This document shows, piece after piece, positions 1-47,187 of a stretch of DNA of 64,000 bases; position 1 is the first letter of the stretch; each line of letters opens with the position of its first letter. Location: contig JAKOGI010000055.1 of assembly GCA_029747015.1 (NCBI GenBank), positions 713,501-777,500 on the forward strand, in the 5' to 3' direction. Origin of the DNA: Carnegiea gigantea (lineage: Eukaryota > Streptophyta > Magnoliopsida > Caryophyllales > Cactaceae). The notes beneath the pieces are model-generated. The model had not been told where the DNA came from. It worked only from the letters and a program-made list of their open reading frames with translations, and made no database searches. The position numbers and the translations under genes are program-made.

Positions 1-886
1 TTAACAAGGGGAGCCCTGTTTCTTTCCCCACACCCATGACACCCCTTCCTTCCACCCCATAAAAGAGCCAAACTCCACAGCAAAGCCTACCCCTACAAAG
101 CATGTCCAAACCAACTCCTTTTGACACTAGTAGGTGTTTTAAGTGTCAAGGATTTGGACATACAACTACGGACTTCACAAACCGAAGGGTCATTACTTTG
201 GCCAAATGGGAAGCAGTAAAGAAGGAAGAGAATGAGGAGGAAAAGAAAGCTTATTTGAGGAGAATTAGGAGGAGAACTAAGAAGAAATTATAGAGAAAGC
301 CAATGAGGGAGAAATTTTGGTTTTGAGAAGAGTATTGAGCGGCCAGAAAGGTGTTAAAGATGAGTAAAGGGAAAACATTTTTCATTCTAGGTGCTCAGTT
401 TAAGGGAAGGTTTGTTTCATCATTATAGAGGGAGGAAGTTGTGCCAATATTGTTTCTCTTAGCATGATTGAGAAACTAGGCTTGCAAGCTACAGCCCATC
501 CCCATCCTTACAACATCTAATGCCTAAGCCAAAGCAAGGGATTGTAAGTTAACTCGCGGTGCCTCATTTCATTCTCCATTAGAAAGAACTACCAAGCGGA
601 GTTATGGTGTGATGTGATTCCCATGGATGCATGCCATATCTTACTAGGAAGGCCGTGAATGTATGATCAGAAGGTGATGTATCATGGTTTTCTAAACATA
701 TGCTCTCTCTTTAAAGAAGGTTACAAGATCACCTTAGTACCTTTATCCTCTTCCGAACGCCACGAAAGTAAACCACAACAGAATCATAAGTATTTGAACA
801 TTTTCTTACTTGTTATAAAACACTACTTGCTGTTCAAGGTAAGTACAAAGCTTTCAAGACCAGAAAAGGCTTATTTGGGTGGTTAG
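1..886 (+). pseudogene. Unit 1 gag-pro pseudogene, 3' part
   Basis: The window opens in the Pro-rich linker of gag. The CCHC knuckle at 135-176 keeps C-x2-C-x4-H, but the last Cys is Phe (TTC). The Glu/Lys linker is frameshifted near 260 and stops at 291-293. The protease site reads I-I-E-G-G-S at about 422-439, with the catalytic Asp changed to Glu. The H-I-L-L-G-R-P motif is followed by TGA (656-658) where Trp is expected, then immediately by ATG (659). From there a 75-aa frame stays open to 886; it is the normal tail of this protease. A purine tract (about 963-975) precedes LTR1. Variants such as AACATCTAATGCCTAA are shared only with unit 5. Confidence 0.85.
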
Positions 887-975
887 ATATATTTCAACCT
901 GACGGATTTAAGTTTATACTTGGCAAGTGATTATGTAGCGAATTTGAGGGAAAATTCTCCTTAATAAGGGGAGGA

Positions 976-2251
976 TGAGGGAGAAGCTTAATGCAGCATG
1001 ATGTAGGTTTTCAAAACATTCAAGGAAAGCCATAATCATCATCCAAAGTTCAAGAAAAGAACTATGTTTTGTTATGGTTCAAAACAGTAGCACCTGGGTT
1101 CACATCAGCAAAACAACCCAGTTTTGTTCATCAAGTTACTTAGGCCTCCTTGAGGTTTAAGTTCAATATTTTTGCGTATTTTGGTTCCCCAGGGTGTTAC
1201 TATCTGGACCGGCCAAGAAATTCAAGTTAAATCCAGTGCAAAGTGAAGAACTAAGGTCATTTCGAAAACTACGTTGGATTCTCCCTGGTTCTGCTGGGTT
1301 CTAATTACTTTGCTATTTTTGGTCATTAAAACGTGATTTAACCCTGATTTCTTAGCAGGAGGGCTTCTGCACATGCTGACGGTTCCCCCTAAGCAAGGAA
1401 ATCAACTCTACAACAATTCAAAGCAGGAGAAATTTGATGCACAAAACCGGCCAAATTCGGTACCTTGCACCCAGTGGCCTATGATGTTGTTTGCTCCTTC
1501 CTTTTGCCATCCAATCAAGACATAGCAGCATCATTGGAAGTTAAAAGTAGTTAGGAGCACAATCATTGCCTTTTCATCCTAACCAAAAGCACTACTAATG
1601 GGAATCAAGGCAACAAAGGCAAGTGAGCTTGGATTGGCTAGCCGTAAAGTGCATGTCCTAACATCCTTTTTCTCTATCCTCCACTTGCAAGCAGCCTTCT
1701 GAGGGCTAATTTAGCAGCCTAGGGATGAGTTTATCCCTTAATCTTTTGCTTAGCTAGGCTCATTGCTTGTAATTGGGTTAGTTAAACATGCTTTGTACTT
1801 AAACAGAATGTAAGCTAGTTTTAAGCTTAGTTACAAGATTCCTAATGATGAAGAAACCTCTAAACCATCTAGGTAGCCAAGGGGGGATGTGTATAAGAAG
1901 GCAAGTAGCTCTATTTGCAAAATTAGATTTGAACTTGAGTAAAAGAAAGTTAAGCTTTGCTCCTTTGAGTTTGTTAAAACCCTTTACTTGCTTATCCTAG
2001 CTTTGGCCAAGTTAGGTGGTGATCAAGTGAATGTTAACTCTTTTTTAGGTGGTGTTTCTACATCCTAATCAAGGTTAAGGCCCTAAGCTTGTTCTTAGTG
2101 GTGATTTCTGTATCCAAGAATCAATTAAAATACACTCCGTTTTGTCATCTTTCATTCGTATTCATCCGAATTCAAGCTTAGGTTCTCTTTGAACTTAGCT
2201 AACTTACATTCCCCTTTTGCGTATGAGTTGAATTGGGCCATGCATACATCA
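976..2251 (+). repeat. LTR1 of the array (1276 bp)
   Basis: It starts TGAGGGAGAAGC after a purine tract and ends ACATCA, followed by ACTT and a PBS at 2256-2267 (TGGTATCAGGGC, one change from the iMet consensus). A TATA-like GTGTATAAG lies near 1890 in front of the inferred transcript start. It shares the unusual GTGAATGTTAACTCTTTTTT (from 2027) with LTR5 only. Confidence 0.9.
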
Positions 2252-2372
2252 ACTTTGGTATCAGGGCTAAGTTTCTCCTAGGCCTTGAAACCAGCCCACA
2301 CGTTCCAAAACAACCTTAACACGATCCCCCAAACACAATCCCTAAACACAATCCGTTTACACCTAAATCAGC

Positions 2373-4110
2373 CATAAGCGTGAGTATGAGTTTGAAAGAG
2401 AAAATTGGACCTGTTTTGAAGAACAACCAAGCTATTCGGACTTTAAATCAAGGCCATAAAGATTCTAATCAAGAATTCAAAGTTCAAAATGAGTACTTAA
2501 GAGGGCAGCTTGGTGATTTCATGATGCAAAAATAGAACGTGCTAGCAAGTCCGACCGGTTCTATCTGCTGTGAAGAGGATGAGGCAGTAACCAACCTCAT
2601 AAGTTCATCTAATGAGGGAGAACCATTAACAAAGGGAGGAAAAGAGTGAAGGCAGCCCAATAACTCTAATGATTTTAGAGTTGAAATCCCTGAATTTGAA
2701 GGTAAACTTGATCCAGACGAATTTCTTGAATGGTTACAGACAGTTGAATACATCTTTGAGTATAAGGATGTTTCTGACGATAAGAATGTCAAGTTGGTTG
2801 CTCTTAGGCTCAGGAAGTATACCTGATTATGGTGGACTAACATATGTGCTAAAGGAGTGAGGAGTAGAAAGAGCGAAATTAGAACTCGGGAGAAGACGAA
2901 AGCCAAGTTAAAGTCACGGTTTCTACCCCCAAATTTCACCCAAGATAGTCATCCTCAATCCCCCAGCCTACGGTAACGTCAATGTTGAAGAATACACACG
3001 TGAGTTTGAGAAACTCTTGATTAAGTGTGCGATTTAGGAACCAGAAGAGCAAACCATAGTTAAGCACTTAGGAGGTCTTGAACCTAAGTATGCTAATGTG
3101 GTGGAATTAAAACAATATGCCACTTTTGATGAAGTTTGTGTCTTGGCTGATAAGGTTGAGAAACAAAGGAAATCAAGGCCTTTAAAATGTGAGTTTCCAA
3201 AAAGCCCATCCCAGGATCAACCCTCTAACAAGGGGCGACCCATTTCTTTCCCCACACCCACGGCACCCCTTCCTTCCACCCCACAAAAGAGCCAAACTCC
3301 ACAACAAAGCCTACCCCCACCAAGCATATCCAAACTAACTCCTTTTGGAACTTGTAGGTGTTTTAAGTGTTAAGGATTTGGACAGATATCTTCGGACTGT
3401 AAAAACTGAAGGGTCATTGCTTTGGCCAAATGGGAAGCAGTAAAGGAGGAAGAGAATGAGGAGGAACAGAAAGCTTATTTTGAGGAGAATCAAGAGGAGA
3501 ACTAAGAAGAAGTTAAGGAGAAAGCCGATGAGGGAGAAATGTTGGTTTTGGGAAGAGTATTGAGTGGCTAGAAAGGTGTTAAAGATGAGCAAAGGAAAAA
3601 TATTTTCCATTCTAGGTGCGCGGTTCAAGGAAAGGTTTGTTCCATGATTATAGATGGAGAGAGTTGTGCCAATATTATTTCTTCTAGCATGATTGAGAAG
3701 CTAGGCTTGCAAGCTATAACCCATCCCCATCCTTACAACATCCAATGGCTAAACTAATGCAAGGGATTGGAAATTAACTCCCGGTGCCTCATTTCATTCT
3801 ACATTGGAAAGAACTACCAAGAGGAGTTATGGTGTGACATGATTCCCATGGATGCATGCCATATCTTGCAAGGAAGGCCATGAATGCAAGATCAGAAGGT
3901 GATGCATGATGGTTTTCTAAACACATACTCTCTCTTTAAGGGAGGTAAGAAGATCACCTTAGCACCTTTACCCCCTTTCCAGCACCATAAAATAACCCAT
4001 AATAGAATCATGAGCATTTGAACCTTTTCTTACTTGTCATGAACCACTACTTACTGTTCAAGGTAAGTACAAAGCTTTCAGGACCAAAAAAGGCTTATTT
4101 GGGTCGTTAG
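2373..4110 (+). pseudogene. Unit 2 gag-pro pseudogene
   Basis: This is a full-length but dead copy. The start codon position (2373) is ATA. An in-frame TAG at 2533-2535 replaces a Gln codon just after the coiled-coil segment, and TGA at 2823-2825 interrupts the gag core just before the conserved L-W-W-T. The knuckle (about 3357) has a stop in place of Gln and Gln in place of the zinc-binding His. The protease site is D-G-E-S (about 3652). The unit carries the array-wide TGA at 3881-3883. Its tail ends at the TAG 4108-4110. Diagnostic variants GGGTCGTTAGTAATAT (4101) and CTTGCAAGG are matched in unit 6. Confidence 0.85.
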
Positions 4111-4199
4111 TAATATTTCGGCCTGATGGATTTAAGTTCATAGTTGGCAAGTGATTATCTAGCAAATTTGAGGTCAAATTCTCTTGAACGAGAGGAGGA

Positions 4200-5479
4200 T
4201 GAGTGAGATCCCTCAATGCAGCATGATTTCGGCTTTCAAAACATTCAAGGAAAGCCATAATCATCATCCACAGTTCAAGAAAAGACCCACATTCTGTTTG
4301 AATTCAAAACAGTAGCACCCGGGTTCACTTCAGAAAGGCAAGCCGGTTTTGTTCATCAAGTTACTTGGGCCTCCTTGAGGTTCAAGTTCAATATTTTGGC
4401 ATATTTTAGTTTGTCAGGATTTTAGCTATTAAGACCGGCCAAGAAATTCAATTTAAAGTAGGTATGAAGTGAAGAACAGATGCCATTTTGCAAACTACAC
4501 GGGATTCTGCCTGGTTTCACCCAGTTCTATTTACTTTGCTATTTTAGGCTATCAAAATGTGATTTAACCCTAATTACTTAGTAGGAGGGCTTGTACACAT
4601 CCTAAGGTTTCCCCCCAAGCGAGGAAATTAAGTCTAAATCAATTCAAAGCAAGAGAAATTTGATGCACAAAACTGGTCAAATTCAGTACCTTACACCTGA
4701 TTAGCTATGGTGTTGGTTACCCCTTCTTTTTGCCATCCAATCAAGACCTAACAGCATCATTAGAAGTTCAAAGCAGTTAGGAGCACAATCATAAGTCTTT
4801 TCAGCCTAGCCAAAAGCACTACCATTGGGAATTAAGGCAACAAAGGCAAGTGAGCTTGGATTGGCTAGCTGTAAAGTGCATGTCCCAGCATCTTTTTCTC
4901 TCTCCTCTATGTGCAAGCAGCCTTCTTAAGGCTAACTTAGGAGCTTAGGGATGAGTTTAGTCCATAAGCCTTTCCTTAGCTAGAACTCATTGCTTGCAAT
5001 TAGCTTAGTTAAACATGCTTTATACTTAAACAGAATGTAAGCTAGTTTTAAGCTTAGTTACAGGTTTTCTAATCACAGAGAAAGCTCTAAACCATCTAGA
5101 CAGTGAGGGGGGGGGTGTGCATAAGTAGGCAAGTAGCTATCTCTATAAAGTTAGATTTGAGCTTGAGTTAAAGAAAGTTGAGCTTTGCTTATTTGAGTTT
5201 GTTAAAACACTTTACTTACTTATCCTAGCTTAGGCCGAGTTAGGTGGTGATCAAGTGAGTGTTAACTCTTATTTAGTTGGTATTTCTGTATCCTAATCAA
5301 GCTTAGGCGCCCTAAGCTTATTCTTGATGTGATTTCCGTATCCAGGAATCAGTTTAGATACACTCGATTCCGTCGTCTTTCATTCGGATTCATCCTAATT
5401 CAAGCTTAAGTTGTCTTTGAACTTAGCTAATGTATATTCCCATTTTAAGTGTCAGTTTAATTGGGCCGTGCATACATCA
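4200..5479 (+). repeat. LTR2 of the array (1280 bp)
   Basis: It runs from TGAGTGAGATCC to CATACATCA and is followed by a PBS at 5484-5495 (TGGTATCAGAAC). A run of G's lies near 5106-5114. The variant ATTTAGTTGG and the R/U5 string around TCGTCGTCTTTCATTC are shared with LTR6. Confidence 0.9.
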
Positions 5480-5601
5480 ACTTTGGTATCAGAACTAAGT
5501 TTTTCCTCGGCCTTGAAATCAGCCCATACGTTCCAAAGCAACCTAAAGACATTCCCCCAAACATAATCCCCGAACATAATCTGTTTATATCCAAATCAGT
5601 C

Positions 5602-7334
5602 ATGAGTGCGAGTTTGAGTTTGGAAGGGAAAATCAAAGTTGTTTTGGAGAACAACCAAGCTATTTTAACTTTAAATCAAGAACTTAATGATTCTAATCAA
5701 GAACTAAAATCTCAAAATGAGTACATGAGAAGGCAGCTTGGTGATTTCATGGTGTAAAAACAGAAAGTACTAGCCAGTCCCATCGGTTTTATCCACAGTG
5801 AGGAGGATGAGGCAGCAAGCAACATGAGTTCTTCTAATGAGGAAGAATCAGTAAGGTAGGGAAGACGAGAACAAAGGTAGCCCACTAACTCTAATGATTT
5901 TAGAGTTAAAACCCCTGAATTTGAAGATAAACTTGATCTAGATGAATTTCTAGAATGGTTACGCACAGTCAAATGTATCTTTGAGTGTAGGGATGTTTCT
6001 GAAGATAAGAAAGTCAAGTTGGTTGCTCTTAGGCTTAGGAAGTACGCCTCATTATGGTGGACTAACACATGTGCCGAAAGGGTGAGGAGTAGAAGGAGCA
6101 AAATCAGAACTTGGGAGAAGATAAAAGCTAAGTTAAAGTCACGGTTTCTACCTCAACTTACATCCAAGATAGTTATTCTCAACTCCTAAGCCTAATCTAA
6201 GGTAGCCTCAATGTTGAAGAACACACACGTGAGTTTGAAAAACTCTTGATTAAGTGTGATACTCAGGAACCGAAAGTGTAAACCATAGTTAGGTATTTAG
6301 GAGGCTTTGAACCTAAGTATCCAAATGTGGTGGAATTACAACAATATGCCACTTTTGATGAAGTTTGTGTCTTGGCTCATATGGTTGTGTAACAAATGAA
6401 ATCAAGGCCTTTCAAATGTGAGTTTCTAAAACCCCATCCGAAGATCAACCCTTAAACACGGGGAGCCCCTTTTCTTTCCCCGTACCTACAATACCCCTTC
6501 CTCCCACCCCACAAAAGAGCCAAACTCCACAGTAAAGCCTCCCCCTGTAAAGCATATCCAAACTAGCTCCTTTTGGTATGAGTAGGTGTTTTAAGTGTCA
6601 AGGATTTGGACACATAGCTGCGGACTGCACAAATTGAAGGGTCATTACTTTGGCTAAATGGGAAGTAATAAAGAAGGTAGAGAATAAGGAGGAAAAGAAA
6701 GCTTATTTTGAAGAGAATCTGGAGGAGAACTAAGAAGAAGCTATAGAGAAAGCAGATAAGGGAGAAATGTTAGTTTTAAGAAGAGTATTGAGTTGACAGA
6801 AAGGTGTTAAAGATGAGTGTAAAGGGAAAACATTTTTCACTGTAGGTGCACGGTTCAAGGGAAGGTTTGTTCCATGATTATAGATAGAGGAAGTTGTGCC
6901 AATATTGTTTCTCATAGCATGATTGAGAAACTCGGCTTGCACGTTATAGCCGATCCCCATCCTTACAACATCCAATGACTAAAACCAAGCAACAGATTGT
7001 AAGTTAACTCCCGGGGCCTCATTTCATTCTCTATTGGAAAGAACTACCAATAGGAGTTATGGTGTGATGTGATTCCTATGGATGCATGCCATATCTTACT
7101 CGGAAGGCCGTGAGTGTATGATCAGAAGGTGAAGCATGATGGTTTTCTAAACACATGCTCTCTCTTTAAGGGACGTAAGAAGATTACCTTAGTACCTTTA
7201 TCCCCTTCCCAATGCCACAAAAGTAAACCACCACAGAATCATAAGCATTTGAACCTTTTCTTACTTGTTATGAACCACCATTCAAGGTAAGTACAAAGCT
7301 TTCAAGACCAGAAGAGGATTATTTAGGTGGTTAG
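5602..7334 (+). pseudogene. Unit 3 gag-pro pseudogene, with an intact CCHC knuckle
   Basis: The start ATG at 5602 opens a ~51-codon N-terminal helix segment that stops at 5755 (TAA for a Lys/Gln position). A further TAG lies near 5857. The gag core to about 6130 is otherwise recognisable (L-W-W-T kept). The knuckle at about 6587-6628 (C-F-K-C-Q-G-F-G-H-I-A-A-D-C) is the only one in the array with all four zinc ligands, but a CGA-to-TGA stop follows within three codons. The protease site reads D-R-G-S (about 6884). The array-wide TGA is at 7111-7113, followed here by GTG rather than ATG. It pairs with unit 7 (GCGAGTTTGAGTTTG, GAGTACATGAGAAGG). Confidence 0.85.
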
Positions 7335-7423
7335 CAATATTTCAGCCTGGCCGATTTAAGTTCATACTTGGTAGGTGATTATCTAGTGAATTTGAGGGAA
7401 AATTCTCTTCAACAAGGGGAGGA

Positions 7424-7509
7424 TTAGGGAGATCCCTCAATACAGCATGATTTAGGCTTTGGAAACATTCAAGGAAAGCCATAATCATCATCCAAAGTTG
7501 ACATGCGTT
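7424..7509 (+). repeat. LTR3 stump, ~85 bp left after a deletion
   Basis: The first ~85 bp of the LTR are present (TAGGGAGATCCC, TG mutated to TA). The sequence then passes at CGTT (7506-7509) directly into the leader just upstream of the unit 4 gag. About 1285 bp are missing relative to neighbours: the rest of the LTR, the PBS and ~50 bp of leader. CGTT occurs at both predicted break points (LTR ACATGCGTTTTG; leader AGACGTTCC), so this fits a microhomology deletion. Confidence 0.82.
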
Positions 7510-7557
7510 CCCCCAAGCACAATCACTGAACACAATCCGTTTATATCTAAATCAGCC

Positions 7558-9273
7558 ATGAGTGTGATTATGAGCTTGAAAGAGAAAACTGAAGCTATTT
7601 TGGAGAACAACTAAGCTATTTCAACTTTAAATCAAGGACATAAAGATCGTAATCAAGAACTCCAAGCTTAAAATGAATACTTGAGAAGGCAGCTTGGTGA
7701 TTTCATGAAGCAAAAATAGAAAGTGCTAGCTAGTCCCACCGGTTCCATCCATGGTGAGGAGGATGAGGCAGCAAGCAACCTCATGAGTTCTTCTAATGAA
7801 GAAGAACCATTAAGGAGGGGAAGAAGAGAACAAAGGCAGCCTACTAACTCTAATGATTTTAGAGTTGAAATCCCTGAATTTGAAGGTAAACTTGATCCAG
7901 ATGAATTTCTTGAATGGTTACACACAGTTGAACACATCTTTGAGAATAAGGATGTTTCTAAAGAGAAGAAAGTCAAGTTGGTTGCGCCTTATTATGGTGG
8001 ACTAAAATATGTGCCGAAAGAGTCAGGAGTAGAAATAACAAAATCAGAACTTGGGAGAAGATGAAAGCTAAGTTAAAGTTAGGGTTTTTACCCCCAAATT
8101 ACATCTGAGATAGTTATTCTCAAATCAAAAACCTAATCCAAGGTAGACTCAATGTTGAAGAATACACACGTGAATTTGGGAAACTCTTGATTAGGTGTGA
8201 TATTCAAGAACCAGAAGAGAAAACCATCGTTGGGCACTTAGGAGGTCTTGAGCCCAAGTGTGCTAATGTGGTTGAATTATAACAATATGCCATTTTTGAT
8301 GAAGTTTGTGTGTTCACTGATAAGGTTGAGCAACAAATGAAATCAAGGCCTTTGAAATGTGAGTTTCCAAAATCCTATCCTATGATCAACCCTTTAACAA
8401 GGTGAGCCCCATTTCTTTCCCCACACCCATGGCACCCTTTCCTTCCACCCCACAAAAGAGCCAAACTCCATGGCAAAGCCTACCCCAACCAAGCATATCC
8501 AAACAAACTCCTTTTAGCACTAGTAGGTGTTGTAAGTGTCAAGGACTTAGATAGATAGTTGTGGGCTGCACAAACCGAAGGGTCATTACTTTGGCCGAAT
8601 GGGAAGCAGTAATGTAGAAAGAGAATGACGAGGAAAAGGAAGCTTATTTTGAGGAGAATCAAGAGGAGGACCAAGAAGAACCTGAGGAGAAAGTCGACAA
8701 GGGAGAAATGTTGGTTTTGAGAGGAGTATTGGGTGGCCAGAAAGGTGTTAAAGTTGAGCAAAGGGAAAACATTTTTCATTTTAGGTTCATGGTTCAAGGG
8801 AGGGTTTGTTCCATCATTATAGATGGAGGGAGTTATGCCAATATTGTTTTTCTTAGCATTATTAAGAAACTAGGCTTGTAAGCTATAGCCCATCCCCATC
8901 CTTGCAACATCCAATGGCTAAACCAAAGCAAGGGATTGGAAATTAACTCCCGGTGCCTCATTTCATTCTACATTGGAAAGAACTGCCAAGAGGAGTTATG
9001 GTGTGACATGATTCCCATAGATGCATGCCACATCTTACTAGGAAGGCCATGAATGTATGATCAGAAGGTGATGTATGATGGTTTTCTGAACACATGCTCT
9101 CTCTTTAATGGAGGTAAGAAGATCACCTTACTGCCTTTATCCCCTTCCCAACGCCACAACAACAAATCACAACAGAATCATAAGCATTTGAACCTTTTCT
9201 TGCTTGTTATGAACCACCATTCAAGGTAAGTACAAAGCTTTGAAGACCAGATGAGGCTTATTTGGGTGGTTAG
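7558..9273 (+). pseudogene. Unit 4 gag-pro pseudogene
   Basis: ATG at 7558 is followed by stops at about 7612 (TAA for Gln) and 7718 (TAG for Gln). A readable gag stretch runs 7723-8064, but ~19 nt are missing just before L-W-W-T (near 7985), which shifts the frame. The knuckle (about 8528) is degraded to C-C-K-C-Q-G-L-R-stop. The protease active site D-G-G-S is kept (about 8821). The array-wide TGA is at 9050-9052 and the tail ends at 9271-9273. No full LTR or PBS lies upstream, so this unit has lost its own 5' control region. Confidence 0.82.
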
Positions 9274-9362
9274 CAATATTTCGGCTTGACGGATTTAAGT
9301 TCATAGTTGGCGGGTGATTATCCAGCAAATTTGAGGGCAAATTCTCTTCAACAAGAGGAGTG

Positions 9363-10641
9363 TGAGGGAGATTCTTCAATTTAGCATATTTAAGCTTTCA
9401 AAACATTCAAGGAAAGCCATAATTATCATCCAAAGTTCAAGAAAAGACCTACATTTTGTTAGGGTTCAAAATAGTAGCACCCAGGTTCACTTCAGCAAAG
9501 CAACACGATTTTGTTCATCAAGTTACTCAGGCCTCCTTAGGTTTAAGTCCAATATTTTGGCATATTTTGGTTCCTCAAGATGTTAGCTATCAAGACCAGC
9601 TAAGAAGTTCAAGTTAAAGTAGGTACGAAGTGAAGAGCCAAGGCTATTTTGCAAACTGCGCTAGATTCTGCCCGGTTTTGCTCGGTTTTGTTTACTTTGC
9701 TATTTTAGGCCATCAAAATGAGATTTAACCCTAATTTCTTGATAGGGGGGCTTGTAAACATCCTGTGGTTTCCCCTTAAGCAAGGAAATCAAGTCTAAGT
9801 CAATTCCAAGCAAGAGAAATTTGATGCATAAAACCGGCCAAATTAGGTACCTTGCACCCGGTTGGCTGTGATGTTGGTTACACCTTCTTTTTTCCATTCA
9901 ATCAAGGCCTAGCAGCATCATTAGAAGTTAAAAACAGTTAGGAGCACAATTATAAGCCTTTTTAGCCTAGCCAAAAGCACTACCAATGGGAATCAAGGCA
10001 ATAAAGGCAAGTGAGCTTGGATTAGCTAGCTGTAAAGTGCATGTCCCAGCATCCTTTTTCTCTATCCTCCCTGTGCAGGCAGCCTTCTTAAGGATAATTT
10101 AGGAGATTAGGGATGAGTTTAGTCCTTAATCTTTTGCTTAGCTAGACTTATTGCGTGCAATTAGCTTAGTTAAACATGCTTTGTACTTAAACAAAATGTA
10201 AGCTAGTTTAAGCTTAGTTGGGGGTTTTCTAATCATGAAGAAACCTCTAAACCGTCTAGGCAACCAAGGGGGGGACGTGTGTAAGCAGGCAAGTAGCTCT
10301 CGCTGTAAAATTAGATTTGAGCTTGAGTTAAGGAAAGTTAAGCTTTGCTTCTTTGAGTTTGTTAAAACACTTCACTTATACTTATCCTAGCTTAGGCCGA
10401 GTTAGATGGTAATCAAGTGAGTCTTAACTCTTATTAAGTTGTGTTTCTACATCCTGATCAAAGTCAATGGCCCTAAGCTTTTTCTTGGTGGTGATTTCTG
10501 CATCCAAGAATCAATTTATATACACTCTACTCTGTCATCTCTCATTCAGATTCATTCTAATTCAAGACTAAGTTCTCTTTGAACTGAGCTAACATACATT
10601 CGCCCTATGAGTGTGAGTTGAATTGGGCCGTGCATAAATCA
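9363..10641 (+). repeat. LTR4 of the array (1279 bp)
   Basis: It runs from TGAGGGAGATTC to CATAAATCA and is followed by an intact PBS TGGTATCAGAGC at 10646-10657. Confidence 0.9.
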
Positions 10642-10763
10642 ACCTTGGTATCAGAGCTATGTTTCTCCTTGGCCTTGAAACCAGCCTATAGGTTCCAAAA
10701 CAGCCTAAAGACGTTCCTCCAAACACAATCCTTGAATATAATTTGTTTACATCCAAATCCACC

Positions 10764-14546: not shown

Positions 14547-14634
14547 CAATATTTTAGCCGGACAGATTTAAGTTCATACTTGGCAGGTGATTATCTAGTG
14601 AATTCGAGGGAGAATTCTCTTTAACAAGGGAGGA

Positions 14635-15909: not shown

Positions 15910-16031
15910 ACTTTGGCATCAGAGCTAAGTCTCTCCTAAGCCCTGAAACCAGCCCACACGTTCCAAACAACATAAACACGGTCCCCCAAACATGGTCCCC
16001 CAAACACAATCAGTTTACATCCAAATCCGCC

Positions 16032-17757: not shown

Positions 17758-17846
17758 TAATATTTTTGCCCGATGGATTTCAGTTCATAGTTGGTAGGTG
17801 ATTATCTAGAAAATTTGAGGTCACATTCACTTAAACAAGAGGAGGA

Positions 17847-19113: not shown

Positions 19114-19235
19114 ACTTTGGTATCAGAGCTAAGGTTTTCCTTGGCCTTGAAACCAACCCATACATTCTAAAACAACCTAAAGACATTCCCCCAAACACAA
19201 TCCCCGAACATAATCTATTTACATTCAAATCAGCC

Positions 19236-22715: not shown

Positions 22716-22719
22716 TTTT

Positions 22720-22731
22720 TGGTATCAGAGC
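22720..22731 (+). other. Primer-binding site of the nested element (tRNA-iMet)
   Basis: TGGTATCAGAGC, exact iMet-type PBS, four bases after the LTR end (TTTT spacer). Confidence 0.95.
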
Positions 22732-28860: not shown

Positions 28861-28948
28861 AAATATTTTAGCCGATGGATTTAGGTTTATAGTTGGTAGC
28901 TGATTATCTAGGGAATTTGAGGGCAAATTCTCTTCAACAAGAGGAGAA

Positions 28949-30208: not shown

Positions 30209-30329
30209 ACTTTGGTATCAGAGTTAAGTTTCTCTTTGGCCCTGGAGCCAGCCTACATGTTCCAAAACAACCTAAAGATGTTCCCTAAACACAATCCCCG
30301 AACATAATCTGTTTACATCCAAATCAGCC

Positions 30330-31372: not shown

Positions 31373-31461
31373 CAATATTTCAGCCTGGTGGATTTAACTT
31401 TATAGTTAGCAGGTGATGATCTAGCAAATTTGAGGGGAAATTCTCTTCAACAAGGGGAGGA

Positions 31462-32725: not shown

Positions 32726-32847
32726 ACTTTGGTATCAGAGCTAAGTTTCACCTCGGCCTTGAAACCAGCCTATACATTTCAAAACAACCTAAAAATGTTC
32801 CCCCAAATAGAATCCCCAAACATAATGTTTTTACATCCAAATCAGCT

Positions 32848-34566: not shown

Positions 34567-34655
34567 CAATATTTTGGACCGACAGATTTAAGTTCATACC
34601 TCGCAGGTGATTATTTAGTGAATTTGAGGGCAAATTCTCTTCAACAAGGGGAGGA

Positions 34656-35935: not shown

Positions 35936-36056
35936 ACTTTGGAACCAGAGCTAAGTTTCTCCTTGGCTTTGAAACCATCCCACATGTTCCAAAATAACCT
36001 AAACGCATTCCCTAAATAATATCCCTAAACACAATCCGCTTACATCTAAATCAGCC

Positions 36057-37797: not shown

Positions 37798-37886
37798 CAA
37801 CATTTTCGCCTGGAGGATTTAAGTCCATGTTTAGTAGGTAATTATCTGGCGAATTTGAGGGCAAATTTTCTTTAACAAGGACAGGA

Positions 37887-39162
37887 TGAGGGAGATCCCT
37901 CAATGTAACACTATTTAGGCCTTCAAAAGATTCAGGGAAAACTATAATCATCATACAAAGCTCAAGAAAAGATGCACATTTTGTTAGCGTTCAAAATAGT
38001 AGCACCCGGGTTCGCTTTAGCAAAACAACCTACTTTTGTTCATCAAGTTACTTAGGCCTCCTTGAGGTTTAAGCCCAATATTTTTGCATATTTTGGTTTC
38101 CCAAGATGTTAGCCAACAAGACCAGCTATGAAGTTCAAGCTAAATCAGGTGCAAAGTGAAGAAGCAAGGCCATTTTACAAACAGTGCTGGATTCTGCTCG
38201 GGTTTGCCTAGTTTTATTTACTTTCCTATTTTTGGCCATCAAAACCTGATTTAACCCTGATTTCTTCACAGAGGGTAGGCACACATCATGAGGTTTTCCC
38301 CCAAGTAAGGAAATCAAGTCTAAGTCAATTCAAAGCAAGAGAAATTTGATGCACAATACCGGCCAAATTTTGGTACTTGCACCTAGTTGGATGTGATATT
38401 GGTTACTCCTTCCTTTTGCCATCTAATCAAGACTTAATAGCATCGTTGGAAGCTAAAAGTAGTTAGGAGCACAATCAAGGCCTTTTTAGGCTAGCCAAAA
38501 GCACTACCAATAGGAATCAAGGCAATAAAGGCAAGTGAGCTTGGATTGTCTAGCCATAAAGTGCATGTCCCAGCACCCTTTTTCTCCCTCCTCCAAGTTC
38601 AAGCAGGCTTCTTAAGGCTAATTTAGGACTTTAGAGGTGATTTTAGTCCTTAATCTTTTGCTTAGCTAGACTTATTGCTTGCCATTGGCTTAGTTAAACA
38701 TGCTTTGTACTTAAACAAAATCTAAGGTAGTTTTAAGCTTAGTTAGAGGTTCCCTAATCATGAAGAAACCTCTAAACCGCCTAGGTAGCCAGGGGGCACG
38801 TGTATAAGTAGGGAAGTAGCTCGCTTTGTCAAATTAGATTTGAACTTGTGGTAAAGAAAGTTGAGCTTTGCTCCTTTGAGTTTATTAAAACACTTTACTT
38901 GCTTACCCTAGCTTAGGTCGAGTTAGGTGGCAATCAAGTGAGTCTTAACTCTTGTTTAGGTAGTGTTTCCATATCATACTCAAGGTTAACGACCTAAGCT
39001 TGTTCTTGGCGGTGATTTCTGTATCCAAGAATCAGTTTAGATACACTCTGTTCTATCATCTTTCATTTGAATTCATCCTAATTCAAGCTTAAGTTCTCTT
39101 TGAACTTTGCTAACTTACATTTCCCTTTTGAGTGTGAGTTGAATTACGCCGTGGATGCATCA
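37887..39162 (+). repeat. LTR11 of the array (1276 bp)
   Basis: It runs from TGAGGGAGATCC to GATGCATCA; PBS at 39167-39178 reads TGGTATCAAAGC. Confidence 0.9.
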
Positions 39163-39331
39163 ACTTTGGTATCAAAGCTGAGTTTCCCCTTGGCCTTAAA
39201 ATCAGCTATGAGTGCGAGTATGAGTTTGAGAGAGAAAATTGAAGCTGTTTTGAAGAACAACCAAGCTATTTCAACCTTAAATCAAGAAGTTAAAGATTCT
39301 AATCAAGAACTCAAGCCTCAAAATGAGTACT

Positions 39332-39910
39332 TGTACGATAATTTTGAGTGAAAAATAAAGTGCCGCAAGTGACGACTATCATCGTAGTACTTCAGGGTCA
39401 TCTCCACAGGGACGATGGAAGAGATTTAGGTCGCTTAACACGAGTTTAAACTGCTTAAGCGACATCCTAAACTAATTAGACAATAAACAAGCAAAATATG
39501 GATTATAAACAAATGAAATTCTAAATAATCCCTAACTTGTAGCAAATTGAAGTATCCTAAAAATAAACGCAATCAATACCAACACAATCGAGGCATCAAA
39601 TATACTCCACAATTCATCAATTGAAGATTACGAATAGCAAACAGAACCATAAAGGGAAAACAGTGTTGCCTAACTAAGAAAGTTTGGGGAATGGTTTAAG
39701 TGCATCAAACGGAAGCATCGATTGAGTAAGAAAAACTAACACTTGAATTGAAATAAAGCAACAATCAAACCAATTTAAACAATTTAAACAGAACTTAAAC
39801 CCTCAAACTCACAGCCACGAAACAAAAACAAAACAAAACAAAACAAAACAAAACTGGACCAAAACACACATAATCACCAAAATACAAACAAGACAAGACT
39901 AGAGGGCTAC
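39332..39910 (-). repeat. 3' LTR (plus-strand left) of the Tat-like element, U3 side not recognisable
   Basis: It matches 42439 to ~43020 (GAGTGAAAAATAAAGTGCCG, GGAAGAGATTTAGGTC, AAGCATCGATTGAGTAA, AGAGGGCTAC). Beyond ~39910 homology to the other LTR is lost. The U3 half and the polypurine tract are missing or replaced by A/C-rich simple sequence, including a (CAAAA)n run at about 39820-39854. Confidence 0.7.
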
Positions 39911-40482
39911 AAAATATCAAACTAGAAAACAATATCAAACTAAATAGATAAACCATAAACAAAACAAAACAAGACTTAAAAGAAAAGAAACAAAACACAA
40001 AACCAAAACACAACCACTAAAACACTAAAAAGGAAACAAAAACAAAAGATTAAACAAAAACTAGCCCCCGCAAAAAAAAACAAATTGAAACATAAAAACA
40101 ATCCTAGATATCCACAACTAACAAGTATTCACAAAATCAGAACACAACCAAGGGTGATCATATCCCAAATTGCTCCTCAAGATTGATCACCCGTATATTC
40201 ACAGTCCTAAATATCCACAACTAAGTACAAAAAAAAAAGAAAGAAAAGAAATGAAAAAGAGAAGAAGGGAGGGTGGAACGATCATACCAGGTTGGATGCA
40301 GGTTGCACCCAAACTATGCCTCACGAAAATGATGCAACATGAGGCTTGTGGAGCATCAGCCACTCCATATTAGGCTGAAAAGTACAACTCAAATCAAAAC
40401 TCGTCAAAGCACGTAGCAGCTTATCAAATAAAGAAGTCAAACTCTCAATTACATAGAAACAGTGAAAAGCAGTGAGTTGGCG

Positions 40483-41403
40483 CTAGAAAGAGTACATCCA
40501 TCTAGCCAATAAAGCACAAGGAAGGGCCCGCTTCAACTTATCAAATAGTTGAGCCCAATCGAAAAGGAAATGAACATACTCAGAACGAGCCAGTATTGAG
40601 GTCATTGGCCTAGAAATTATATCGTCATGAAGGAGCAGTCTGAGCAAAATAGGGGGTGCAAATTGCACAAGTCTGTTAAGTGCAATATGTATATGAGTCT
40701 GGTCTAAAGCAAAATTCTTAGTGGCAATGATCTCAGACTCAACAAATTCAGATTTGCAGTATTCAAAAAGGAAGTCAGTTTGGATAGAGTCAAAAGAGAA
40801 AGACTCATAATCAGCACAAAAACTATCATCAAAACTTCCATGGGCATCAAACTCACAAGAAAAGGATTCATATTCTACATACAGAAGATTATCATCTAAT
40901 TTAAATAGAAGGTCAGGAATGACAGGATCAAAAAAGAATGATTCAAATTCAACATGAAAACCCACATCAAGACCTTCAGTAACATCAAACCCACATGAAA
41001 AAGATTCATATTCTACATAAAGAATATCATCATCAAAGTCCAAAATAGTAGGTTCAGTTACCTCATCGCATAACTATTGTGAAATATCTTCCTATGACTC
41101 ATCTAAATCATGAGGCTCAATTTCAGGAATGATGCTTATATCTAACTCACTAACAATATCAGATTGTTCACCCACATCAAACTCACAAAAGTCGTTCAGA
41201 GTGGTGGGTGGGTCAGTAGAAACTAGGACATCATCAGTGATGCCCTTAGGTGAGCTAGTACAGTGTGCAAGGTCAGGTGATAGAGACATAAGAAAGTCAC
41301 TCTCTTGATCTAAACTAGGCAAATACATGTCTTCATTCAAGTCAGGCCTAGCAGAATAAGAGGATTCAAAATCATCATAGAGACTAATGTCAGGTTTAGG
41401 AGA
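40483..41403 (-). pseudogene. Acidic protein with YESFS repeats (downstream of Tat gag)
   Basis: I do not recognise a function. Two open pieces in the same frame (41340-41092 and 41043-40483) are separated by two TAG stops. A frameshift near 41400 separates them from the gag above. The protein is rich in Asp, Glu, Ser and Phe. It has at least four repeats around Y-E-S-F-S-C-x-F-D, each preceded by L-Y-V-E or a similar start, at ~12, 55 and 77 aa of the lower piece plus a variant at ~32. The C-terminal ~90 aa change to a Leu/Ala/Arg-rich stretch ending S-F-stop (40483-40485). It occupies the place where protease or pol would be, so it belongs to the element and is not a host gene. Confidence 0.6.
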
Positions 41404-41405
41404 TC

Positions 41406-41990
41406 CTAAACTAGATCAAGCTCATTGTAAGTCTTCCTATTTTGATTAAAACATTGAGAACATACAGCAATTCTCGCCTTCATGGTCTCTATCATTTGAT
41501 CTGTCATTTCATTGATCTTTTTTTCAAAACTTGCACATGTAGCATCAAGATAAGCACGAAAAGGACAAGTATGAGCATCATGATCAGAAGATTCACAATA
41601 TTCGCACAAAATAGAGGCATACAATAGTGAGATGGGTCATGTGAATTCATAAAGTGGTCTGAAGGGTAAGAATTAGCTTGAAAATCATACTCTCTACGAG
41701 TTGGGTATCTAAAAGTCTCGTTAGCTTGTTCGAACGCATATGTTTCCCAAGCTAGTTTTTCAAAGAAATCCTAAACTTCATCTTGAGTTTTAGATAATAA
41801 TTCTATTAAACCTCTAGGATAAATTGATTTAACATAACTCCTTGACTCAACATTTAGACCCATAGCCATGACCTCATAAATTTCCTAGTTTTCAAAATTG
41901 TGATTCAGTTGAGCACGATAATCATTAAGCCTTGAAAAATAACTCCAAAAAAATTCATGCTCATATTGCGGGAAATAGAAAACTGGCATT
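41406..41990 (-). pseudogene. gag: Tat-type gag remnant with CCHC knuckle
   Basis: On the minus strand from about 41990 down, a gag C-terminal half typical of Tat/Athila elements can be read across several lesions: F-S-R-L-N-D-Y, L-L-S-K-T-Q-D-E-V, D-F-F-E-K-L-A-W-E-T-Y-A-F-E-Q and Y-P-T-R-R-E-Y. A frame change near 41630 leads to an open 72-codon piece (41624-41406). That piece contains the knuckle C-E-Y-C-E-S-S-D-H-D-A-H-T-C (C-x2-C-x4-H-x4-C) and a following helix with K-K-I-N-E-M-T-D-Q-M. Stops replace Trp after D-E-V. The N-terminal half is not recognisable between 41990 and the PBS. Confidence 0.8.
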
Positions 41991-42415
41991 TGAAGTTTTT
42001 AAAGTTTTTAAAATTTTTCAATTTTTAGGGGTTTTCAGGTTTTTCTAATTTTTTTATGGGTCTTTGGATTTTTTCAAGAAATGAACTAAATATATCACAA
42101 CTAACAATGGATAAACAAAGTAAGTCAAAGCATAAGCAACTAATAAGAACGAAACTAAGAAAAAGAAAAGTGGTCAAACTAAGGGAAATATAAACTTGGC
42201 ACTTTGTTTTTGAGGTTTTTAAAATTTTCTCTTTTTTTTTTTGGTGGTTTTCAAGTTTTCTAATTTTTTAGATTTCAAGCTTTTTCCATTTTTTTGGGAA
42301 TTTTTGAATAATTCAAGTAATGTACTAAATCAAGTCACAACTTAATAATGTAATAAAGCAACCTAATACTAAAGTAACTATGAAAAGAAAATGCGACATA
42401 ATCTAATGCCGTCGT

Positions 42416-42432
42416 CCCCGACAACGGCGCCA
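42416..42432 (-). other. Primer-binding site of the Tat-like element (tRNA-Asp type)
   Basis: The minus strand reads TGGCGCCGTTGTCGGGG, the usual Tat/Athila PBS, six bases from the LTR end. It fixes the element's orientation and the position of its 5' LTR at higher coordinates. Confidence 0.88.
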
Positions 42433-42438
42433 AAAACT

Positions 42439-44205
42439 TGTACGATAATTTTGAGTGAAAAATAAAGTGCCGCAAGTGTACGACTGTCGTCGTAGTATTT
42501 GAGGGCTGTCTCCATAGGGATGATGGAAGAGATTTAGGTCACTTAACATGAGTTTAAACTGCTCTAGCAACATCCTAAACTAATTAGACACTAAACAAGT
42601 AAAACATGGATTATAAACAAATGAAATTCTAAATAATCCCTAACTAGGATCTAAATGTAGCAAATTTAAGTATTCTAAAAATAAACGCAATGAATACCAG
42701 CACAATCCAGGGATCAAATATACTTCGCAATTCATCAACTGAAGATTATGAACAGCAAATAGAGCCACAAAGGGAAAACAGTGTTGCCCAACTAAGAAGG
42801 TTTGGGGAATGGTTTAAGTGCATCAAACGGAAGCATCGATTGAGTAACGAAAACTAACACTTGAATTGAAACAAAGCAATAATCGAACCAACTTAAACCA
42901 TTTAAACAAAACTTAAACCCTCAAAATCACAACGACGAATCAAAACCAAACATAGTCAATGGTATATTCGCATCAAAACCTTCCAGTTTCCAAAACCCAG
43001 AAGAGGGCTACAGGGGAGAAAATGAGCAACTGAATAATGAACTATTTGATCACATCAACCAAACTACTAAGGCATAATTAACTAAATCAACTAAATCATC
43101 TAAACTACTAAAATCAACTAAATTAACTAAACTACTAAAATCAGAACATTATCAAATCAACCAAAGTACTAAATCAACAAAAGAAAACTAGGCTTATCAG
43201 GATGAAATTAAAAACTTAAACAGAGGAACAGAGCAACAATGCAAACCAGAACAGAGGAAGAGACTTTAAAACTTCAACCAAGAACAACCATAAATGAGAT
43301 TCTCAGCTTGCTCAACACGGCAGATTCACATCACTGATGCTTCAACGAAGAATAGGGGAGGGGGAATTTCGAAATTACTCAAAATTAGCCCAAAAAATTG
43401 TTGCAATTACAACTGAAGTTCACGAATGACAATTCAAAATCAGCAATTCAAAGCCTAATAACATGAAATTAAGGGCTGAAAACAAATCTATAATCGAAAC
43501 CCCAAACCGAAACAACCCTAAATTTTGAATGTTTCGAATGACTGAAACGAGAACGAAATTAAACCTAAAACGAAACCTAAAGCTTAAACGAAACCTAACC
43601 TAAACCCTAGATTGTTACCTAATATCTTCCAAAAGTGCTGCTAGCTTGATTTATACTTAACCCCAGCTTCGTCTCGGCCCTTGAATTTGTAGATGGCGCG
43701 GACGGTCATGATGGAATGATGATGCTACTGCGCTGGCGCTTAGTGCTAGTGGAGATAGGGATGAAGGTGGTGGTGTGGTACTGGTGGTTTGAAGGTGTCG
43801 TGGTGGATGAAAGAGGGAGAGATAATGGTGAGGATGAAGATAGAGATTTCAAGTGGAGGGGTTTTGGGCTCTGCAGACCCAGAGGAGAGAGAATAGGAGA
43901 TTAAGTGAAATAAAAGGAGGGGGTTTGGGACATGTGACAGGCGTGTGGGGGGTTTAGGTTTATTTTCAATTTAATTTCCTTTTATTATTTTTTGGGTTAT
44001 AATGGGCATTTGGGTTGGGTTCGAGTCAATTTAGCCCAGTTCTTCCATTTTCGGTATTTTTTTCATCATTTTCCCGCATTTCTTCCAAAATATTCAAAAC
44101 CTACAAAACAAAATAAAATCAAATAAAAACCTAAAATAGCAATTATTACGAGCATAAATTGGGTATAAAAGTATCGCAAAAAATAACACATTTTTGGCAT
44201 GAATA
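42439..44205 (-). repeat. 5' LTR of the Tat-like element (~1.77 kb)
   Basis: The LTR end with the usual CACTTGCGGCACTTTA-like R/U5 signature is at 42439-42480. The LTR start lies near 44205, where the array gag resumes. It holds A-rich simple sequence (about 43070-43180) and an open plus-strand frame at 43716-43904 that I regard as chance. Confidence 0.75.
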
Positions 44206-45915
44206 GAACTTGAGAAGGCAACTTGGTTATTTTATAAAGAAAAAACAAAAAGTGCTAGCTAGTCCCATCAGTTCAATCCACAGTGAGGAGGATGGGGCAG
44301 TAAGCAACGTAAGTTCTTCTAAGGAGGAAGAACCATTAAAAAGAGGAAGAAGAGAACAAAGACAGCCCACTAACTCTAATGATTTTAGGGTTGAAAGCCC
44401 TGAATTTGAAGGTAGACTTGATCCAGATGAATTTCTAGAATGGTTACACATAGTTGAACGCATCTTTGAGTATAAGGATTTTTCTGAAGATAAGAAAGTG
44501 AAGTTGGTTGCTCTTAGGCTCAGGAAGTACACCTCATTCTGGTGGACTAACATACGTGTCGACAGAGTGAGGAGTAGAAGGAGCAAAACTAGAACTTGGG
44601 AGAAGATGAAAGCCAAGTTAAAGTCATGGTTTCTACCTCCAACTTACATCCAAGATAGTTATTCTCAACTCTACAACCTAATATGAGGGAGCCTCGATGT
44701 GGAAGAATACACAAGTGAGTTTGAGAAACTCTTGATTGAGTGTGACATTCAGGAATTAGAAGAGCACGCCATAGTTAGGTGTTTAGGAGGTCTTGAACCA
44801 AAGTATGCTAATGTGGCGGACTTACAACAATATGCCACTTTCGATGAAGTTTGTGTCTTGGCTCATAAGGTTGAGCAACAAAGGAAATCAAGGCCCTTAA
44901 AATGTGAGTTTCCAAAACCCCCATCCTAGGATCAACCCTTTAACAAGGGGAGCACTATTTCTTTCCTTACACCCACGACACCCCTTCTTCCACCCTATAA
45001 AAGAGCCAAACTCCACAGCAAAGCCTACTGTAACCAAGCATATCCAAACTAACTCCTTTTTGCACTGGTAGGTGCTTTAAGTGTCCAGGATTTGGACATA
45101 TAGCTATAGACTACACATACCGAAGAGTCATTACTTTCACCGAATAGGAAGCAGTAAAGGAGGAAGAGAATGAGGAGGAAAATAAAGCTTATTTTGAGTA
45201 AAATCAAGAGGAGAACCAAGAAGAAGTTAAGGAAGAAAGCCAATGAGGGAGAAATGTTGGTTTTGAGAAGAGTATTGAGTGGCTAGAAAGGTGCTAAAGT
45301 TGAGCAAAGGGAAAACATTTTTCATTCTAGGTGCATGGTTCAGGGGAAGGTTTGTTCCATGATTATAGACGAAGGAGTTGTGCCAATATTGTTTCTCTTA
45401 GCATGATCAAGAAACTAAGCTTACAAGCTACAGCCTAGTCCCATCCTTACAACATCCAATGGCTAAACCAAAGCAAAGGATTGCAAGTTAACTCCAGGTG
45501 CCTCATTTCATTCTCCATTGGAAAGAACTACTAAAGAGGAGTTATGGAGTGCCGTGATTCCCACAAATGCATTCCATATCTTACTAGGAAGGCAGTGAAT
45601 GTTTGATCAGAAGGTGATGCATGATGGTTTTCTAAACACATACTCTCTCTCTAAGGGAGGTAAGAAGATCACCTTAGTACTTTTATCGCCTTCCCAGCGC
45701 CACAAAAGTAAACCACAACAGAATCATAAGCATTTAAACCTTTTCTTACTTGTCATGAACCACTACTTACTATTCAATGTAAGTACAAAGCTTTCAAGAC
45801 TAGAAAAGGCTTATTTGGGTGGTTAGCAATATTTCAGCCTGGTGAATTTAACTTCATACTTGGCAAGTGACTATCTAGTGAATTTGAGGGCAAATTCTCT
45901 TCAACAAAGGGAGGA

Positions 45916-47187
45916 TCAGAGAGATCCCCCAATGTAGCATGATTTAGTCTTTCAAAACATTCAAGGAAAGCCTTAATCATCATCTAAAGTTCATAAAAAG
46001 ATCCACGTTTTGTTAGGGTCAAAACAGTAGCACCCGGGTTCGCTTCAGCAAAGCAACCCGGTTTTGTTCATCAAGTTACTTAGGCCTCCTTGAGGTCTAT
46101 GTCCTATATTTTTGCATATTTTGGTTTCCTAAGATGTTAGCTATCAAGACCAGTGAATAAATTCAAGTTAAATTAGGTGCAAAGTGAAGAACTAAGGCCA
46201 TTTTTAAATGCACTAGATTCTTCCTGGTTCTGCCCGATTCTATTTACTTTGCTATTCTTGGGTGTCAAATCGTGATTTAACCTAATTTCTTAATAGGGGT
46301 GCTTGCACACATCCTGTGGCTTCCCCCCAAGGAAGGAAATCAAGTCTAAGTCAATTCAAAGCAAGAGAAATTGATGCACAAAACCAGTGAAATTCGATAC
46401 CTTGCACCTAGTTGTCTGTGATGTTGGTTACTCCTTCTTTTTACCATCCAATGAAGACCTAGCATCATCATTGGAAGTTAAAACCAGTTAGGAGCATAAT
46501 TATAGCCTTTTCAGCCTAGCCAAAAGGACTGCCAATGGGAATCAAGGCAACAAAGGCAAGTGAGCTTGGACTAGCTAGCCTTAAAGTGCATATCCCAGCA
46601 TCCTTTTTCTCTCTCCTCCATGTGCAAGCAACCTTCTTAAGGCTAATTTGGGAGCTTATGGATGAGTTTAGTCCTTAATCATTTGTTTAGCTAGACTCAT
46701 TGCTTGTAATTAGCTTCATTAAACATGCTTCGTACTTAAACATAATGTAAGCCAGTTTTGAGCTTAGTTAGAGGATTCCTAATCATGAAGAAACCTCTAA
46801 ATTGTCTAAGTAGCCAAGGAGGGATGTGTATAAGTATGCAAGTAGCTCTCTTTGTAAACTTAGATTTGAACTGAAGTTAAAGAAAGTCGAGCTCTGCCCT
46901 TCGAGTTTGTTAAAACACTTCACTTGCTTATCCTAACTTAGGCCGAGTTGGGTGCTGATCAAGTGAGTCTTAACTCTTATTTAGGTGGTGTTTCTATATC
47001 CTAATCAAGGTTAAGGGCCCTAAGCTTCTTCTTGTGGTGGTTTTTGTATCCAAGAATCAGTTTAGATACACTCTATCCTATCATCTTTCATTCGAATTCA
47101 TCCTAATTCAAGCTTAAGTTCTCTTTGAACTTAACTAACTTACATTCCCCTTTTGAGTGTGAGTTAAATTGGTGCGTGAAAACATCA
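45916..47187 (+). repeat. LTR12, right-hand end of the array (1272 bp)
   Basis: It starts TCAGAGAGATCC (TG mutated to TC) after a purine tract and ends AAAACATCA at 47187. The next bases (AGTTTATCC...) are not the ACTT-PBS seen after the other full LTRs, so this is the outer 3' LTR of the whole array. Confidence 0.88.

Follow-up and report, generated by a model that had tools for sequence, protein, structure and literature searches.

Tandem chains of LTR retrotransposons that share their LTRs are known from several plants. The IDENTAM pipeline, which covers rice, Arabidopsis, almond and cotton and limited loci to 40 kb, was accompanied by 28 curated rice cases, 80% of them with LTRs more than 95% identical (PMC11899658). 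Like the array described here, these tandems, mostly gypsy in rice, alternate internal regions with shared LTRs. They represent a single insertion with a 5-nt duplication, to which the near-matching flanks of our array may correspond, and at one locus, TLI2, the unit number varies between haplotypes (two units, one unit or a solo LTR; PMC11899658). The two loci detailed in that paper consist of two units, whereas our array has 14 units, spans 55 kb with its inserts and is far older; whether such tandems insert as tandems or arise by later recombination is stated there to be open (PMC11899658). Cassandra TRIM arrays reach 12 internal domains and 13 LTRs in the same LTR-internal-LTR arrangement (PMC7215508), and multi-LTR elements of the maize TRIM Wukong, with up to seven LTRs, were interpreted as recombination products (PMC4528315). 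An earlier note on this DNA had mentioned two- or three-unit examples in plants, a figure that both families show to be too low. Cassandra as described lacks gag, carries 5S in its LTR, takes up ~6 kb per 12 units and has almost identical units (PMC7215508), whereas the units of our array are 3.2 kb long, gag-derived and 11-17% diverged. Wukong likewise belongs to a short element type without gag, unlike the array element (PMC4528315). TR-GAG elements are non-autonomous LTR elements with gag and without pol, as is ours, but they have one GAG frame, whereas in our element a protease-like remnant comes after gag and the frames are disrupted (PMC8704663, which cites Chaparro 2015). The maize CRM1TR and CRM4TR repeats are also gypsy-derived tandems broken by nested elements, but their monomers are LTR-UTR fragments and not an LTR with a whole internal region (PMC3648361), and Ogre-derived satellites, also tandem DNA of retrotransposon origin, grow out of short repeats located in the 3' untranslated region of Ogre, unlike the array (PMC7004042). 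The kind of structure is already known from rice, Cassandra and Wukong; what is noteworthy here is the length, the age and a sister locus with a single unit.

The window, meaning the whole stretch of 64,000 nucleotides analyzed, comes from contig C55 of a 1.13-Gb Carnegiea gigantea assembly. Over positions 1-47187 single LTRs (~1.28 kb) alternate with internal regions (~1.95 kb) in one direction, with a period of ~3.2 kb that is beyond the reach of the tandem-repeat finder (periods up to 500 bases). Self-comparison of the window (143 BLAST rows, self rows and mirror rows included) gave long diagonals on the plus strand, spaced by multiples of ~3.2 kb, over 1-47192, and mapping of one real unit onto the window gave 12 consecutive units in the same orientation, the last ending at 47187. 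This confirms the tandem array with shared LTRs that the earlier note had proposed. Its count of twelve units is right for the window, where 12 LTRs and as many internal regions lie (the first of the latter clipped by the window edge). The left flank extends the array by 8.3 kb, and the whole comprises 14 internal regions and 15 LTRs at C55:705229-760687, the units in the window being v03 to v14 (Table 1).

Table 1 Features of the array in the window (positions 1-51028).
Feature	Position	Strand	Description
Unit v03	1-2251	+	Third unit of whole array; internal 1-975 clipped by window edge, LTR 976-2251; continues left
Unit v04	2252-5479	+	Internal 2252-4199, LTR 4200-5479
Unit v05	5480-7505	+	Internal 5480-7423; deletion leaves ~82 bp of LTR (7424-7505)
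Unit v06	7506-10641	+	Internal 7506-9362, LTR 9363-10641
Unit v07	10642-15909	+	Internal 10642-11466 and 13709-14634, LTR 14635-15909
Nested insert A	11467-13708		TG..CA, 2.24 kb, 5-bp duplication CTTCC, inside v07
Unit v08	15910-19113	+	Internal 15910-17846, LTR 17847-19113
Unit v09	19114-26995	+	Internal 19114-20991, LTR 20992-21168 and 25902-26995 (insert B between)
Nested insert B	21169-25901	+	Young related gag element, duplication GTTTA, inside v09 LTR
Unit v10	26996-30208	+	Internal 26996-28948, LTR 28949-30208
Unit v11	30209-32725	+	Internal 30209-31461, lacking ~690 bp at 30886, LTR 31462-32725
Unit v12	32726-35935	+	Internal 32726-34655, LTR 34656-35935
Unit v13	35936-39162	+	Internal 35936-37886, LTR 37887-39162; protease-like piece 37118-37426
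Unit v14 (last)	39163-47187	+	Internal 39163-39333 and 44208-45915 (insert C between)
Nested insert C	39334-44207	-	Another LTR-type element, duplication ACTTG, inside v14
v14 terminal LTR	45916-47187	+	AGTTT of right flank directly after
Right flank	47188-51028	+	Duplicated at C55:834000-837860, beside single-unit copy of same insertion

The window contains 11 boundaries between units. At ten of them the LTR end (..ATCA) leads directly into the primer-binding zone (ACTTTGGTATCAGAGC or a close variant of it), and inspection revealed neither a second LTR nor a target duplication there. The eleventh (v05/v06, ~7505) has lost the LTR end and the primer-binding zone to a deletion that also takes about the first 60 bp of v06. 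All three boundaries in the left flank show the LTR end running straight into the internal region, and the purine tract and LTR start were located in all 12 units, with the one at 7424 opening the truncated LTR. The earlier note, which had argued from such single-LTR boundaries against independent insertions, is right in this. The array begins and ends with an LTR, both ends are canonical LTR termini, and the final LTR is followed by non-element DNA. Its flanks, ACTTT on the left and AGTTT on the right, agree at four of five target-site bases, a match expected by chance at about 1.6% of sites by our own arithmetic. The large differences between units, and the separate nested inserts that three of them contain, make misassembly unlikely. 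The joined 314 kb of C55 contains 5000 N.

The best gag frame (27398-27781, in v10) matched Retrotrans_gag (E=5e-12, 46.3 bits, cut-off 24.1) and Ty3_capsid (34.9 bits, cut-off 29.1). Two Asp_protease_2 matches were weak (E=0.01 and 0.16, both under the Pfam cut-off), and a DGGSxANI-like motif is present in aligned pieces. No pol domain was matched in the scanned array pieces, and an internal region of ~1.95 kb is too short to accommodate pol. Of the Gag-protease content claimed earlier, gag and the lack of room for pol hold, and the protease corresponds to matches below the cut-off. Judged by these matches, the array element is Ty3/gypsy-like, non-autonomous and decayed, with gag(-protease) content, and it is assigned to this superfamily because of its gag. 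The frames are broken and the longest plus-strand open piece is 159 aa; with the protease-like remnant, this led us to reject a TR-GAG identity (one intact GAG frame and no other domain). A Cassandra TRIM identity was rejected as well, gag being present and Rfam giving no match in the window at gathering thresholds; no tRNA was found in the window either. Single-unit changes per site at gag codon positions 1, 2 and 3 were 0.50, 0.34 and 0.40, with no third-position excess. A protein search with a gag piece yielded 204 relatives, and among the 120 listed one was named ('hypothetical protein').

The array units form an almost star-like tree, with a mean K2P of 0.17 across the 12 window units, and adjacent units are not closer than distant ones (mean residual from the star fit 0.0008, 11 pairs). 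This divergence and the absent adjacency effect rule out a homogenised satellite, and the description of the array as satellite-like in that sense is not supported. The leading and trailing LTRs of the array differ by K=0.187. With three close lag-4 pairs excluded, middle LTR pairs gave K=0.176, a ratio to the terminal pair of 0.94 (0.84-1.08, 100 bootstraps), and internal-region pairs K=0.173. From these distances, the ages of the units are about equal to that of the insertion; amplification may have lagged somewhat, since the ratio drops to 0.88 (0.80-0.98) when it is taken to the average of four terminal LTR pairs, with the sister locus counted in.

The close lag-4 pairs include v04-v08 (K 0.126, z -6.6) and v05-v09 (K 0.122, z -7.3), and a finer scan placed the similar stretch from about column 960 of v03 to the LTR start of v05, with noisy interruptions. 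A clean four-unit tandem duplication, modelled from the window alone and then tested on the left flank, predicted v02 and v06 to be close twins; the left flank gave K 0.165, and the model was rejected. Conversion fits the lag-four similarity as well. We also found an alternating pattern in v03-v10. With the 12 window units only, the odd and even sets were the top two of 495 four-unit sets (10 and 6 sites), and were so again with three other reference units at a looser setting. After v01 and v02 were added the pattern weakened: of 1001 sets, 3+5+7+9 came first with 6 sites, and 4+6+8+10 shared second place with 3 sites; v01 carries one of seven odd-set sites and v02 one of four even-set sites, with one gap. 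Because of the lag-four similarity and this alternating pattern, the units appear clearly to have exchanged sequence in place.

A paralogous locus at C55:830205-833999, 125 kb from the array (start to start), has one unit only and the same ACTTT/AGTTT flanks. Its left flank matches that of the array over 579 bp (87.2%) and its right flank over 3881 columns (85.6%); 600-bp array flanks were compared with 33 loci and longer flanks with C55:800001-877500 only. By this flank sequence, the sister locus is a duplicated copy of the array's own insertion. Since the divergence of the flanks (0.11-0.147) is below that of the units and the sister unit has no close counterpart among the units of the array, we can only infer that the sister copy contracted to one unit. 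The trailing LTRs of the two loci share eight exclusive bases, against 0 to 5 for other piece-unit pairs, seven of them in the last ~170 columns, and this link is not outstanding by local distance. Rooting with one dispersed copy (L034) gave two internal columns that isolate the sister unit, and 0 to 5 for single array units.

A young two-unit tandem at C55:814329-821860, 54 kb to the right of the array, and two further tandems were identified. An empty-site paralogue exists for the young tandem, which lies between two identical copies of CTTCT. Its outer LTRs differ at 19 of 1122 positions and its internal regions at 49 of ~2083, the internal regions being no younger than the outer LTRs.

We consider it likely that the array goes back to one insertion, became tandem at or soon after integration and later changed its unit number in place by homologous exchange. 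A single insertion of the gag(-protease) element would have founded the whole array, and the step that first made it tandem would have been either the integration of a short multimer with shared LTRs or unequal LTR-LTR exchange starting while the LTRs were still identical. Exchange between units would then have set their number, 14 in the array and one in the sister copy, and a later exchange would have copied about 7.4 kb across a four-unit distance; point changes, short deletions and three nested insertions would have eroded the units since then. Unequal crossing-over or multimers, the pair of routes named in the earlier note, is the correct pair, and the data date the tandem arrangement to the insertion or just after it, and exchange in place to a later time. 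At a rate of 1.3e-8 per site per year the array would be ~7 My old. Gradual, lifelong growth of a single inserted monomer by repeated unequal crossing-over between LTRs, in the manner of satellites, would also account for the exchange between units and for the single unit of the sister locus. It predicts that neighbours and recent duplicates are far closer than the age of the insertion, but adjacent units are not closer, unit pairs other than the lag-4 ones roughly match the terminal LTR pair in age, and the two internal regions of the young tandem are no closer than its outer LTRs; we regard this growth as unlikely and already disfavoured.

The star-like age and the exact LTR-internal repeats with shared LTRs are also what one would infer for a one-LTR extrachromosomal circle whose rolling-circle product was caught in a chromosome break, with no integrase involved. 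Such a capture is quite improbable: it would end at arbitrary points, but both ends of the array coincide exactly with LTR termini, next to a 5-bp duplication that nearly matches, and the young tandem bears a perfect one. A family that is dispersed and repetitive (5026 and 4748 candidates in two first-look lists) might raise the suspicion that its members inserted here independently, or that the assembly is at fault. Among the 40 matches scored in each list, however, those outside C55 reach 82% and 80%, and units of the array itself 83-87% in the same searches; ten surviving window boundaries lack a second LTR or target duplication; against an artefact stand the 11-17% between units and the separate nested inserts of three of them. 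We give this explanation hardly any weight. The preferred reading, one insertion that was tandem at or soon after integration, has a bolder version, rather doubtful at present, in which the gag-only gypsy lineage is here often 'born tandem', the integrating copy itself being a multimer with shared LTRs. If so, long arrays such as the 14-unit one would be founded at integration and not grown later. Read-through RNA and a one-LTR circle are examples of such a template.

Tandem insertion and later recombination can be dated against each other at this locus because 14 units, terminal LTRs that can time the insertion, a sister copy with one unit and a young dimer that has an empty-site paralogue come together here. 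The sister copy and the nearby two-unit chain make it a good case for studying how such chains originate, and the array shows that they can last long without homogenisation into satellite DNA.

The three nested elements, each within a 5-bp target duplication, total 11.8 kb. Insert A, which splits the internal region of v07 (itself with a ~200-bp deletion near 11361), is probably a solo LTR of another family. Insert B has two LTRs that are 98.2% identical and frames for Retrotrans_gag and a zinc knuckle. The end repeats of insert C are 88.8% identical over 510 columns; it probably lies on the minus strand, as does its longest frame (40483-41073), and it has a putative motif resembling a primer site.

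Comparison of the window with itself gave plus-strand diagonals spaced at multiples of ~3.2 kb over positions 1-47192, and mapping of one real unit back on the window revealed 12 consecutive units, all on the plus strand. Both analyses agree with the earlier note, which had described a single-orientation array of 12 units with a ~3.2 kb period. Each unit consists of an internal region of ~1.95 kb and one LTR of ~1.28 kb. A purine tract precedes the LTR start in 12 out of 12 window units, and at 10 of the 11 window boundaries the LTR end (..ATCA) is followed without a gap by the primer-binding zone, which matches ACTTTGGTATCAGAGC apart from a few changes. The remaining boundary (v05/v06; units are numbered v01-v14 from left to right) has lost both the LTR end and the primer-binding zone to a deletion. 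The v05 LTR is shortened to ~82 bp and internal deletions are present in several units.

Addition of the 50 kb to the left of the window showed that the array extends 8.3 kb further, its first element being an LTR (v00) that begins at the canonical first bases. In the 1.13 Gb assembly, where the window occupies positions 713501-777500 of contig JAKOGI010000055.1 (hereafter C55), the full array (C55:705229-760687) comprises 14 internal regions and 15 LTRs over 55.5 kb, of which 11.8 kb are nested inserts, and is flanked by ACTTT (left) and AGTTT (right). Nested element B is a young gag element with LTRs 98.2% identical and long gag frames. Nested element C is of LTR type and carries an open piece of 196 aa on the minus strand (window 40483-41073) without Pfam match. 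To the right of the array, window 52400-55400 holds a decayed element, read by eye as gag-protease-RT, whose two longest frames had no Pfam match.

Coordinates of nested elements, sister-locus parts and related tandem loci
Feature	Location	Target duplication	Period	Unit identity
Nested element A, inside array	window 11467-13708	CTTCC (5 bp)		
Nested element B, inside array	window 21169-25901	GTTTA (5 bp)		
Nested element C, inside array	window 39334-44207	ACTTG (5 bp)		
Sister left LTR	C55:830205-831413			
Sister internal region	C55:831414-832757			
Sister right LTR	C55:832758-833999			
Tandem with shared LTR, related element	C788:204501-210500		3.35 kb	84.5%
Tandem with shared LTR, related element	C460:373901-379500		3.14 kb	86.1%

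Among nine array pieces scanned together, the best gag frame (window 27398-27781) alone passed Pfam cut-offs, for Retrotrans_gag and Ty3_capsid; a second gag piece fell just under the cut-off and two protease-like pieces under it, as did one more gag piece in a separate scan. When aligned, the protease-like pieces show a D-G-x-S-x-A-N-I-like motif. The unit is too short to hold pol, and the longest stop-free piece on the plus strand is 159 aa (one such scan took the first 2 kb of each array piece). The unit represents a Ty3/gypsy-like gag(-protease) element that is non-autonomous and dead; its assignment to a superfamily is based on gag.

The 12 window units differ by a mean K2P of 0.17 (range 0.119-0.194), the mean distance over 15 rows being 0.174, and a star tree fits the pair distances (mean residual of neighbouring pairs 0.0008, n=11 pairs). 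The leading and trailing LTRs (v00-v14) differ by K = 0.187, which serves as insertion clock; at 1.3e-8 substitutions per site per year it would give a rough insertion age of ~7 million years. After exclusion of three close pairs of units four apart, mean K is 0.176 for middle LTR pairs and 0.173 for internal pairs. The middle/terminal ratio is 0.94 (bootstrap 0.84-1.08) against v00-v14 and 0.88 (0.80-0.98) against the mean of four terminal LTR pairs, sister locus included; most of the amplification therefore took place near the time of insertion. The first and last units, v01 and v14, group weakly in five trees (support 0.84-0.96); one internal-region tree lacks this grouping.

Both array flanks are duplicated at C55:829626-837860, where this sister locus carries one element at the same point, between the same ACTTT and AGTTT. 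A third copy of part of the right flank (C55:796403-798787) stops short of the insertion site. Flank K between array and sister locus is 0.11-0.147 (five stretches), sister pieces differ from array units by 0.165-0.223, and the sister's two LTRs by 0.217; its unit falls in the star, with no close partner among array units. Given similar rates of change in flanks and units, the array already had several units when the duplication occurred, and the sister copy has since contracted; should units change ~1.3 times faster than flanks, all events coincide in time. The sister right LTR and v14 have 8 exclusive common bases, of which 7 fall within the last 170 columns. Such a distribution would be predicted if the terminal LTR had retained its partner at its outer end only, the remainder having been exchanged. 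By local distance alone this pair is not conspicuous.

Later exchange between units is indicated by pairs four apart whose distances lie clearly below those permitted by the star, namely v04-v08 (K 0.126, z -6.6) and v05-v09 (K 0.122, z -7.3), and less clearly for v03-v07 (K 0.157, z -2.3); the similar stretch begins at about column 960 of v03 and ends roughly where the v05 LTR starts. The predicted pair v02-v06 (K 0.165) is not closer than the star, and conversion or a more complex exchange therefore explains the similarity better than plain block duplication. Exclusive bases are also common to the odd and to the even units of v03-v10, these sets ranking as the top two of 495 (12 units) and as first and joint second of 1001 (14 units).

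In rice, tandem LTR retrotransposons that share LTRs are reported to be common and polymorphic, and they also occur in three further plants; that study leaves the mechanism of their formation open (PMC11899658). Cassandra arrays with up to 12 internal regions (PMC7215508) and Wukong copies with up to seven LTRs (PMC4528315) are also reported. The titles and abstract openings listed in searches of open-licence papers included no 14-unit gag-bearing array, and we therefore file the present one as a new, unusually long and old case of this known type.

A young LTR-internal-LTR-internal-LTR tandem of a related gag-element family lies at C55:814329-821860 between perfect 5-bp duplications (CTTCT). 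An empty-site paralogue (C55:807941-809245) without the insert matches both its flanks at 89-90% with a 5-bp overlap. Over 1122 positions its LTRs differ by 9 (LTR1-LTR2), 16 (LTR2-LTR3) and 19 (LTR1-LTR3) substitutions and its internal regions by 49 over ~2083; the outer LTRs are not older than the internals, consistent with integration of a dimer or with immediate duplication. The tandems given here are a lower bound on the number of such loci, since one genome search scored 40 out of 5026 candidates and the other 40 out of 4748. Four plus-strand LTR matches among the 40 scored of 5026 lie at C1803:71688-93224, the last three starting ~2.8 and ~3.8 kb apart, and this locus is possibly another array.
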